Shown here in pieces: positions 50,830-54,562 of a stretch of DNA of 64,000 nucleotides (its first letter is position 1; every line of letters starts with the position of its first letter). Below the pieces are notes generated by a model. It saw only the letters and a list, made by a program, of their open reading frames with translations, searched no databases and was not told where the DNA came from. The translations under genes and the position numbers were made by a program. This stretch comes from Miltoncostaea oceani (GTDB lineage: Bacteria; Actinomycetota; Thermoleophilia; Miltoncostaeales; Miltoncostaeaceae), in NCBI RefSeq assembly GCF_018141545.1, contig NZ_CP064356.1, forward strand, positions 372,001 to 436,000, in the 5' to 3' direction.

Positions 50830-51402
50830 GTGAGCGACGATCCCCGCACCCGCCTGGCCACCCTGCTGCGCGAGCACGCGCTCGTGCGGGAGTCCGTGAT
50901 GCTCTCGTCGGGGCGGCGGTCCTCGTACTACTTCGACGCGCGCCAGGTGCTGCTCGACCCGGAGGGCGCCGCGCTCGCGGGGCGCCTCATGTGGGACCAC
51001 CTCGCCCCCGCGGGACCCGCCGCCGTCGGCGGGCTGACCCTCGGCGCGGACCCGCTGGTGTGCGCAGTGAGCGCCACGGCATGGGCCGGCGGCCGCCGGG
51101 TGACGGGCTTCTTCGTGCGCAAGGAGGCCAAGAAGCACGGCCTCCAGCAGTGGATCGAGGGTCCGTTCATCGAGGAGGGCACCCCCGTCGCCGTCGTCGA
51201 CGACGTCCTCACGAGCGGGGGGTCGCTCGTCGCCGCCGTCGAGAAGGCGCGTCAGGCCGGCGGGGTCGTGGTCGCGGCGTCCGTCGTGATCGACCGCGGC
51301 GAGGGCGGCCGCGAGGTCGCCGAGGCCGCGCTCGACGGAGCCCCGCTCCATGCGCTCTACACGTCCGCCGAGCTGCTCGAGACGGGGCGCCCGGGAGCGT
51401 GA
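50830..51402 (+). CDS. pyrE: Orotate phosphoribosyltransferase
   Basis: Converts orotate and PRPP to OMP in pyrimidine synthesis. 190 residues; the PRPP motif VAVVDDVLTSGGSL lies at residues 120-133. VMLSSGRRSSYYFDARQVLLDPEG near the N-terminus is the orotate-binding region, and FFVRKEAKKHGLQQWIEG holds the mobile loop. The stop overlaps the rsgA GTG (GTGA). No other pyr gene is in the window. An ATG nine bases upstream is the alternative start. Confidence 0.92.
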   Translation: MSDDPRTRLATLLREHALVRESVMLSSGRRSSYYFDARQVLLDPEGAALAGRLMWDHLAPAGPAAVGGLTLGADPLVCAVSATAWAGGRRVTGFFVRKEAKKHGLQQWIEGPFIEEGTPVAVVDDVLTSGGSLVAAVEKARQAGGVVVAASVVIDRGEGGREVAEAALDGAPLHALYTSAELLETGRPGA

Positions 51403-52298
51403 GCCGGACACCCCGGGCGGTCGCCGCGACACGGGAGGCCGTGGTCGTGCGCGTCTCGGGGCCGACGGCGACGTTGTGGGTGGAGGGCGAGGAGCGGGAG
51501 GCGCGGCTGCGCCCGCGCATGCCGGGCGGGCCGGCCGTGGCCGGCGACCGGGTGCTGCTGCGCCCCAGCGACGCCGACGCCGCCGCGCCGACCGTGATCG
51601 GGGTCGCGCCCCGGACGACGGTGCTGGAGCGCGGTGAGCGGCCGGGGGGGAAGCCGCGGGCGATCGTCGCGAACGCCGACCTCGTCGTGATCATGGCCGC
51701 CGCCGCCGACCCGCCGCTCAGCGCCCGCCTCATCGACCGCTACCTGGTGGCGGCGGAGGTCGGGGGCATGGAGGCGGCGGTCGTCGTCACGAAGATCGAC
51801 CTGCCGCACGACGCCGCGGAGCTCGACGCGCTGCTCGGGGTCTACCGCGACATCGGGTACCCCGTCCTCACCGGCGTCGCGCGGGAGCCGGCCCTCGCCG
51901 CCGCCGTCCGCGACCTCATCGACGGCCGCACCGCGGTGCTCGCCGGCCACTCCGGGGTCGGCAAGTCGACCCTCACGCGCGGGCTGACGGGCGTGCAGCG
52001 GGCGGTCGGCGCGGTCAGCGAGAAGGCCGGCACCGGTCGCCACACCACGAGCGACCCGCGGGTGATCCCGATGCCGGGCGGCGGGGCCGTCGTCGACACG
52101 GCCGGGGTACGGACCTTCCACCTCCCCGCGATGGACCGGGCGCGGCTCGAGGCCGGGTTCCCCGAGATCGCCGCGGCGGCGCGGGGATGCCGGTTCCGCG
52201 GGTGCGCGCACGACGGCGACGCCGGGTGCGCGGTCGAGGGCGCGGTGAGCGACGAGCGCCTCGCGAGCTACCGGCGGATCCTCGCCACGATGCGGTAG
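51399..52298 (+). CDS. rsgA: Ribosome small-subunit GTPase RsgA
   Basis: Circularly permuted GTPase that helps mature the 30S ribosomal subunit. 299 residues: OB-fold head (AVVVRVSGPTATLWVEGEE), then G4 TKID (131-134), G1 GHSGVGKST (183-191), G3 DTAGVR (233-238), and a C-terminal zinc finger with C264, C269, H271 and C277 (CRFRGCAHDGDAGC). The permuted order G4-G1-G3 is diagnostic. A GTG start is coupled to pyrE. It ends 18 bases before the promoter of the repeat-protein gene. Confidence 0.94.
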   Translation: MSRTPRAVAATREAVVVRVSGPTATLWVEGEEREARLRPRMPGGPAVAGDRVLLRPSDADAAAPTVIGVAPRTTVLERGERPGGKPRAIVANADLVVIMAAAADPPLSARLIDRYLVAAEVGGMEAAVVVTKIDLPHDAAELDALLGVYRDIGYPVLTGVAREPALAAAVRDLIDGRTAVLAGHSGVGKSTLTRGLTGVQRAVGAVSEKAGTGRHTTSDPRVIPMPGGGAVVDTAGVRTFHLPAMDRARLEAGFPEIAAAARGCRFRGCAHDGDAGCAVEGAVSDERLASYRRILATMR

Positions 52299-52315: not shown

Positions 52316-52344
52316 TTGACCTTGTATGGAGCCAGGCCTTAAGT
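52316..52344 (+). promoter_or_regulatory. Sigma-70-like promoter of the repeat-protein gene
   Basis: TTGACC, a 17-base spacer and TTAAGT, 64 bases before the ATG. It is the cleanest housekeeping-type promoter in the window and lies in a locally less GC-rich stretch (TTGTATGGAG). A palindrome begins on its last base. Confidence 0.65.
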
Positions 52345-52363
52345 TCGTGCCGCACGGCACGAA
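52344..52363. promoter_or_regulatory. Perfect palindrome at the expected transcription start
   Basis: TTCGTGCCG, then CA, then CGGCACGAA: 9-bp arms with a two-base centre, starting at the last base of the -10 box. Its position suits a repressor operator; it could also fold as a short 5' hairpin in the mRNA. Confidence 0.55.
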
Positions 52364-52408
52364 GCCGTCCCGCTATCCCGTGACCGAAACCCGCCGGAGG
52401 AAGAGTTC

Positions 52409-53515
52409 ATGAGTCGTCCTCGACGTTTCCTGCCCCCGATCGCCGGAGGGGCCCAGACCACCGGCTGGGAGGCGCTGGAGAAGTGGGTCGGCGGGTCGGG
52501 TGGCTCCGCGTCCGGCGACGCCCCCGCGGCGGCCGCGACCGGCAAGACCGGTTGGGAGGCCCTGGAGAAGTGGGTCGGCGGCGGGTCCGGCGGCGGCGCG
52601 TCCGCGGCCCCGGCGGCGACGGGCAAGACGGGCTGGGAGGCCTTGGAGAAGTGGGTCGGCGGGGGCTCCGGCGGGTCCTCGTCGGCCGCCGCCCCCGCGG
52701 CGGCCGCGACCGGCAAGACCGGCTGGGAGGCCCTGGAGAAGTGGGTCGGCGGCGGGTCCGGCGGCGGCGCGTCCGCGGCCCCGGCGGCGACGGGCAAGAC
52801 GGGCTGGGAGGCCTTGGAGAAGTGGATCGGCGGGGGCTCCGGCGGGTCCTCGTCGGCCGCCGCCCCCGCGGCGGCCGCGACCGGGAAGACCGGTTGGGAG
52901 GCCCTGGAGAAGTGGGTCGGCGGCGGGTCCGGCGGCGGCGCCTCCGCCGCCCCGGCGTCCTCCTCGGTCCCGGGCGCGGCCCCGGCGGGCGGCACCGGCT
53001 GGGAGGCCCTCGAGAAGTGGGTGGGCGGCGGCTCCGGTGGCGGGGCGTCCGCCCCGGCGTCCCCCTCCGGGAAGACCGGTTGGGAGGCCCTGGAGAAGTG
53101 GGTCGGCGGCTCGGCCGGCGGCGCGGCCGCGGCGACCCCGGCGGCGGACGCCCCGGCGTCCTCCTCGGTCCCGGGCGCGGCTCCGGCGGGCGGCACCGGC
53201 TGGGAGGCCCTGGAGAAGTGGGTCGGCTCGGGCTCCGGCCCCGGCGGCGCATCCGCGGCGACCCCGGCGGCGGACGCCCCGGCGTCCTCCTCGGTCCCGG
53301 GCGCGGCCCCGGCGGGCGGCACCGGCTGGGAGGCCCTCGAGAAGTGGGTCGGCGACAGCGGCACGTCCGCGCCGCCGCCCGCGGCGACCGCCTCGAACGG
53401 CGCCGCGGCGTCCGAGGGCGCGGGCAGCGCCCCCGCCCCCGCCGCGTCGGCGGAGGCCCCGGCCGAAGCCGGCGGCTTCATCGGCTTCCTCAAGCGCCTC
53501 TTCGGCGGCAAGTAG
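52409..53515 (+). CDS. Ten-repeat TGWEALEKWVG protein, function unknown
   Basis: 368 residues with no recognisable family. The sequence TGWEALEKW(V/I)G occurs ten times, starting at residues 18, 47, 74, 104, 131, 161, 196, 223, 263 and 305. The linkers (15-31 residues) are Gly/Ser then Ala/Pro, of three types: ones ending in TGK, a Ser-rich version, and ones with ASSSVPGAAPAGG. The N-terminus is basic (SRPRR) and the C-terminus (residues 357-367, FIGFLKRLFGG) is cationic and amphipathic. Each repeat has two Trp and a net charge of -1. There is no signal peptide or membrane helix. GGAGGAAGAG gives a strong ribosome site. This looks like a multivalent scaffold or linker; a multi-core peptide precursor is an alternative, but no modifying enzyme is nearby. 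Confidence 0.88.
   Translation: MSRPRRFLPPIAGGAQTTGWEALEKWVGGSGGSASGDAPAAAATGKTGWEALEKWVGGGSGGGASAAPAATGKTGWEALEKWVGGGSGGSSSAAAPAAAATGKTGWEALEKWVGGGSGGGASAAPAATGKTGWEALEKWIGGGSGGSSSAAAPAAAATGKTGWEALEKWVGGGSGGGASAAPASSSVPGAAPAGGTGWEALEKWVGGGSGGGASAPASPSGKTGWEALEKWVGGSAGGAAAATPAADAPASSSVPGAAPAGGTGWEALEKWVGSGSGPGGASAATPAADAPASSSVPGAAPAGGTGWEALEKWVGDSGTSAPPPAATASNGAAASEGAGSAPAPAASAEAPAEAGGFIGFLKRLFGGK
52547..52888 (+). repeat. 171-bp tandem duplication inside the repeat gene
   Basis: Two consecutive 171-bp units (57 codons, each holding two repeats) are almost identical in DNA, differing at a few bases including the GTC to ATC change that gives WIGG in repeat five. The two copies of the same unit also share silent positions (GCCTTGGAG in the second half), so this is a recent duplication rather than convergence. 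Confidence 0.85.
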
Positions 53516-54535: not shown

Positions 54536-54562
54536 TTGGCACTCAACATCATTGAGTGCCAA
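54536..54562. promoter_or_regulatory. CIRCE operator (HrcA site)
   Basis: TTGGCACTC-N9-GAGTGCCAA, a perfect 9-bp inverted repeat with nine-base spacer, one base per arm from the canonical TTAGCACTC form. It lies 15 bases before the groES TTG start and should bind the HrcA repressor, so the chaperonin operon is under heat-shock control. Confidence 0.93.

Follow-up and report, generated by a model that had tools for sequence, protein, structure and literature searches.

A conserved inverted repeat on the promoter of a family-restricted repeat-protein gene is most likely the operator of a dedicated repressor

The locus described in this study is located in a stretch of 64,000 nucleotides from Miltoncostaea oceani (G000:C1:372001-436000 of a genome of 4.54 Mb), which we refer to as the window. 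It contains rsgA, encoding the ribosome small subunit GTPase A, followed by a gene coding for a protein built from short repeats, with the promoter region that is the subject of our analysis placed in between (Table 1). In most of the ten neighbourhoods compared, the order of genes is pyrE-rsgA-repeat gene-(NUDIX)-ASCH-groES-groEL, and no gene for a regulator or transcription factor was seen beside the repeat gene in any of the ten, as judged by homology to the proteins of the window and by eye. In g10, a genus with small genomes, the repeat gene is followed by a class I aldolase-like gene (assigned by eye; L195, L196), and its promoter region differs and does not contain the operator described below.

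Table 1. Coordinates of features at the repeat-gene locus, numbered from the first base of the window.
Feature	Position	Strand	Basis and remarks
rsgA (ribosome small subunit GTPase A), upstream gene	51402..52298	+	PF03193, E 3.5e-43; TIGR00157; synteny; conserved neighbour
-35 element TTGACC	52316..52321	+	Sequence; TTGAC/TTG near this position in 17/17 aligned orthologous promoters
-10 element TAAGTT	52340..52345	+	T-A-n-n-T-T invariant in 12 operator-bearing promoters; 18 bp spacer
Operator 5' half-site TTCGTGC	52344..52350	.	Consensus TTYGTGC; overlaps end of -10
Operator centre N6, here CGCACG	52351..52356	.	36-43% identity between genomes vs 82-90% in the arms
Predicted transcription start	about 52351-52354		Inside operator centre; predicted from distance to -10
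Operator 3' half-site GCACGAA	52357..52363	.	Consensus GCACRAA; 5-7/7 arm matches in 12/17 promoters
Shine-Dalgarno GGAGGA	52396..52401	+	Sequence; leader about 55 nt
Repeat gene, 368 aa	52409..53515	+	10 copies of (T)GWEALEKWVGG; C-terminal GGFIGFLKRLFGGK

The repeat protein has no match in Pfam or NCBIfam, and a literature search with strings of its repeat peptide was equally without a match. Its repeats are connected by linkers rich in Gly, Ser, Ala and Pro, and its C-terminal stretch is amphipathic. A low-confidence model obtained with AlphaFold2 from the single sequence, with a mean pLDDT of 43.9, contains short helices at most repeats and at the C-terminus. A search of 41 genomes detected relatives, which where complete comprise between 2 and 14 repeats, in 21, a number that includes G000. 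These 21 belong to the 25 genomes from the same bacterial family, and none was detected in the 16 from other families of the class. In a sample of 396 genomes spread over the phylum, the gene was found in 11, again all of this family. The combination of a GWEALEKWV helix with flexible linkers and an amphipathic tail was encountered in no other bacterial family searched. In one relative (G014, L010), a hydrophobic segment resembling a membrane-spanning one replaces the amphipathic FLKRLFGG tail, an exchange that hints at membrane attachment of the protein, and its role as a multivalent membrane-associated scaffold is offered here as a guess.

The region upstream of the repeat gene had initially attracted attention for a promoter of the form TTGACC-17-TTAAGT, overlapped by a perfect palindrome with arms of nine and a centre of two bases. 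Both boxes are indeed located at 52316-52321 and 52339-52344 with the described spacing, and the letters of the palindrome, TTCGTGCCG-CA-CGGCACGAA, were confirmed at 52344-52363, where it ends 45 bases 5' of the ATG at 52409. A search for TTGAC-N17-20-TANNNT on both strands of the 64 kb window returned this single match, compared to 0.15 expected from 40 dinucleotide shuffles, and perfect 9-2-9 palindromes occur six times compared to a mean of 1.9 and a maximum of 5 in 40 shuffles. The promoter of the repeat gene is unusual for the window, and a 9-2-9 palindrome alone constitutes weak evidence.

The significance of the palindrome was assessed by comparison with related genomes. Upstream regions were examined for 26 loci, some of which are duplicates of one genome, with G014 taken separately. 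Of the 21 genomes carrying the repeat gene, 17 have a comparable promoter that could be read, and these promoters, which belong to orthologous genes from 11 genera, were aligned without gaps starting from the -10 box. The alignment leaves out three genomes of g10 (G012, G021, G023), whose upstream region is different, and G019, where the contig starts within the gene. At a spacing of six bases, the fraction of pairing positions between both arms is 0.70 in the 17 promoters, compared to 0.25 +/- 0.05 at 59 other spacings, the next best of which reaches 0.445. If only the 5-bp parts of the arms located outside the -10 box are considered and 93 spacings are used as null, the pairing amounts to 0.72 in all 17 promoters (null maximum 0.44), to 0.64 with one row for each of the 11 genera (null maximum 0.42), and to 0.69 in the 14 rows that remain without the genus of the window (null maximum 0.49). 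Twelve of the 17 promoters have complementary bases at 5-7 of the seven arm positions, two at three and another three at one or two. Among the 12 genomes bearing the operator, the -10 box has a pairwise identity of 0.90, the portion of the 5' arm outside this box 0.83 and the 3' arm 0.82, and the identity falls to 36-43% in the centre, 35-37% in the spacer and 27-32% in the leader. Covariation between the arms is slight, with both changing together only in the two genomes of genus g4, whose operator reads TTTGTGC-N6-GCACAA. The conservation of the arms across species is far beyond chance. An ordinary promoter carrying a fortuitous palindrome, which the abundance of 9-2-9 palindromes in a window of 75% GC might suggest, is thus very improbable, since both arms are retained at fixed spacing in genera where spacer and leader are close to saturation. 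Such coincidence is refuted by the comparison unless the promoters had been transferred recently, and the neighbouring RsgA is deeply divergent. What had started as an impression from a single genome has in this way become a conserved and testable operator.

The comparison also refines the anatomy of the region. At the same place in orthologous promoters, the sequence reads TAAGTT, TAGGTT or TAACTT, and its distance to the -35 box varies slightly. Since all 12 operator-bearing promoters share TAnnTT, and since the distance between both boxes varies among relatives, we place the functional -10 element probably at TAAGTT, with a spacer of 18 bp. The original prediction had thus pointed to the correct region but likely not to the exact box, and the overlap with the palindrome, which it had confined to the last base of the -10, would comprise its last two. 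Its 9-2-9 description has to be replaced: the conserved element is a 7-6-7 palindrome of 20 bp, TTYGTGC-N6-GCACRAA, with arms of seven and a centre of six bases, and the inner pairs that extend it in G000 are not common to its relatives. With a distance of 6-9 bases past the revised -10 element, transcription would start near the centre of the palindrome.

This predicted start bears on a different explanation, where the 3' arm would supply the 5' strand of a small hairpin formed right at the 5' end of the transcript, with a protective or regulatory role for the mRNA, and where the palindrome in the promoter would be secondary. A possible hairpin, ACGGC-ACGAA-GCCGT, is discerned by eye at 52354-52368, and similar short hairpins are found in several relatives, as exemplified by CGCACG-AACCC-CGTGCG in G009. 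When folded, the first 32 nt from the predicted start show a mean z of -0.99 in 17 genomes (Fisher p 1.7e-4), and in G010 the hairpin is kept although the dyad is lost. However, a hairpin would require neither the letters GCACRAA nor a match to the arm adjacent to the -10 element, its stem and the position of its partner strand vary, z is positive in 5 of the 17 genomes, and the lowest-energy fold in G000 is a different one. Since with a start in the centre the 5' arm would not be transcribed, recognition as operator in DNA is favoured over recognition of an RNA hairpin. We thus consider the hairpin, which is weak and variable, an improbable origin of the conserved arms, and it could coexist with the operator.

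The operator is absent from five of the 17 aligned promoters, where at most three of the seven arm positions match, and from all three g10 upstream regions examined. In the five dyad-less promoters, both the -35 and the -10 box are kept, with an identity of 0.83 in the -10 and of only 0.20 in the 3' arm, which illustrates that the operator is a separable module that was either gained by, or lost from, a persisting promoter. When mapped on a maximum-likelihood tree of RsgA (21 rows), its distribution requires three changes compared to a mean of 7.1 after shuffling. Two of these changes are forced by well-supported branches of a tree whose long branches leave the root and some placements unsure.

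Because the palindrome lies on the promoter and because it is kept in relatives, it is marked as a likely docking site for a repressor. We find it likely that the gene is controlled by a sigma-70-type promoter where the repressor binds the 20-bp operator TTYGTGC-N6-GCACRAA extending over the end of the -10 element and the start. In this mechanism, a dimeric DNA-binding protein encoded elsewhere in the genome would bind the operator via two recognition elements separated by roughly one turn of the helix (with 11 bp between the centres of GTG and CAC), the bound repressor would block access of RNA polymerase to the promoter, and the repeat protein would be produced only upon its release. The suspicion in the original prediction that the gene is probably repressed is strengthened with respect to an operator-like palindrome on its promoter, both of which are conserved at the same gene within the family, whereas repression itself is deduced from this position. 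Classical operators of the tet, lac and CIRCE type overlap the -10 and the start. As in these systems, the dyad extends over -10 and +1 in a sigma-70 promoter, with both elements sharing bases, here with the inverted repeat at 52344-52363 reaching into the -10 element at 52340-52345 and across the predicted start, and it is conserved as a dyad across species. Unlike the classical examples, it apparently serves one target gene. The motif is new and the kind of element is familiar.

The same layout is found at two other sites of the same genomes, namely in a CIRCE element preceding groES and in a dyad that covers the -10 of rex. The former, a perfect inverted repeat TTGGCACTC-N9-GAGTGCCAA (TTGGCACTCAACATCATTGAGTGCCAA) at 54536-54562, directly precedes groES-groEL and is present in 7 of 8 neighbourhoods checked, with none in L189. 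The consensus of HrcA/CIRCE is TTAGCACTC-N9-GAGTGCTAA, and groESL is probably under the control of HrcA. The notion that the repeat gene is wired differently from its surroundings consequently applies to its sigma-70-type promoter, which is unusual in the window, but not to operator control as such, since groES with its own operator is located only 1 kb downstream. Both elements are repressor-type inverted repeats conserved in the same gene neighbourhood, but they differ in half-site and spacing, and the groES site is the only one in the window that agrees with HrcA/CIRCE.

The rex promoters of 20 genomes of the family (L167-L186) contain the dyad GTTTGYGAC-N5-GTCACAAAC overlapping a -10 of sequence TAGTTT, with a pairing of 0.64 compared to an average of 0.28 across 20 spacings, in an alignment of 19 of the 20 genomes that leaves out G005. 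Its layout equals that of the repeat-gene operator, although it is one base wider. Known sites of CRP, TGTGA-N6-TCACA, and Rex, TTGTGAA-N4-TTCACAA, share with the repeat-gene operator a GTG-N8-CAC core, with 11 bp between recognition triplets, whereas the operator is distinguished by its conserved inner C/G and outer TTY/RAA bases. As a special case of the proposed mechanism, the repressor could thus be a global regulator of the CRP/FNR or Rex family with a lineage-specific preference. The core geometry is compatible with this identity, as is the operator of g4 (TTTGTGC-N6-GCACAA), and an HTH_Crp_2 domain is encoded in 42 of 42 and the Rex N-domain in 38 of 42 genomes of the family. It is for this wide distribution, which includes genomes without operator, that neither family discriminates between candidates. 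The Rex N-domain was not found in G011, an operator-bearing genome that is 87% complete. The letters of the half-sites deviate from both families. In place of the inner A of TGTGA, the 5' half-site contains a C in 10 of 12 operators, a T in one and an A in G009, and the corresponding base of the 3' half-site is a G in 12 of 12. Two to three copies of TGTGA-N6-TCACA itself are present in each of three genomes, compared to 0 for a control pattern, suggesting that the usual inner A may still be used there. Similarly, the dyad of rex has a centre of five bases flanked by AC/GT, compared to C-N6-G in the operator. More sites would also be expected for a global regulator, and we regard this assignment as rather unlikely.

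A group 1 site of the IclR family is described as GKTYCRYW3-4RYGRAMC (PMC8222616), and the GTTCG/CGAAC ends of the operator in several relatives resemble it, but these ends are 12 bases apart instead of the 5-6 in GTNCG-N5-6-CGNAC (PMC8222616). Among the papers listed in literature searches for the motif, whether contiguous or spaced, nothing matched TTYGTGC-N6-GCACRAA, and among those listed for Rex motifs nothing matched the repeat-gene operator. The operator is not filed under any known regulator family.

The specificity of the operator for one gene is reflected in its genomic distribution. A search of G000 for TTYGTGC-N6-GCACRAA returned one exact site, one with a single mismatch, which lies across the beginning of a short predicted frame, and 15 with two mismatches, 12 of which are inside predicted reading frames (selected by third-position GC, which is a rough criterion). 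The expectation that further copies would name the repressor was thus disappointed, with no second site being informative. Totals at up to two mismatches in G000, G001 and G003 (17, 14 and 20) are not far above those of a reversed-pattern control (7, 9 and 3). Sites with two mismatches were inspected for all 15 of G000 and for 7 of the 28 in G001 and G003. The composite pattern TTGAC-N19-TANGTTYGTG occurs in 8 of 42 genomes of the family, once in each and always before the repeat gene. The near-absence of other copies is what would be expected for an operator with a single target, and we infer a dedicated repressor. In summary of the sequence evidence, both the promoter and the conserved operator on it appear to be real, and the operator most likely serves such a repressor.

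As an extension that we deem rather unlikely in its full form, both partners would constitute a private regulatory pair, where the sole target of the repressor within the family is a family-restricted helical scaffold with many repeats and a membrane-seeking tail. This scaffold would be produced under a single condition only, since its dose would otherwise lead to unwanted assembly. With a target confined to one bacterial family among those searched, the signal sensed by the repressor would be the first clue to the role of the protein, and the 20-bp operator provides an exact bait for fishing out the repressor.

Matches to the exact motif are present in 14 of 42 genomes of the family, in four of them at the repeat gene (G000, G004, G011, G018). 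Others are found at a zinc-ribbon gene (G018, G009), between an amino-acid-transporter-like and an MFS-like gene (six g10 genomes) and inside predicted coding frames (three g10 genomes). In two genomes of g7, a perfect TTCGTGCYGATCRGCACGAA is located between the -10 and the start codon of the small zinc-ribbon gene (L046:1501-1520, L047:1501-1520), which has orthologues in 9 of 42 genomes of the family. The orthologue in G022, the sole upstream region from another genus examined, does not contain the site. No convincing autoregulatory site for a regulator was found, and sites with one mismatch in 14 genomes reveal neither a coherent regulon nor a regulator gene among the targets. A recurrent one, TTTGTGAGGTNNNGCACGAATG, is located at the translation start of an alpha/beta hydrolase gene in five genomes from three genera (L070-L074), where it comprises both the ATG and its GAGGT ribosome site and may be kept for this reason, and a palindrome resembling TTCACCGGTGAA is located further upstream. 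A carboxypeptidase-regulatory-like gene is preceded by such a site in G001 and G003, and single cases, with gene names assigned by eye, are found before isocitrate-lyase-like (G001), dodecin-like (G003) and alcohol-dehydrogenase-like (G008) genes. Before the isocitrate-lyase-like gene of G001 (L076:2971-3020), a CRP-type TGTGATCTTTCTCACA is located 14 bases from the one-mismatch copy of the operator.
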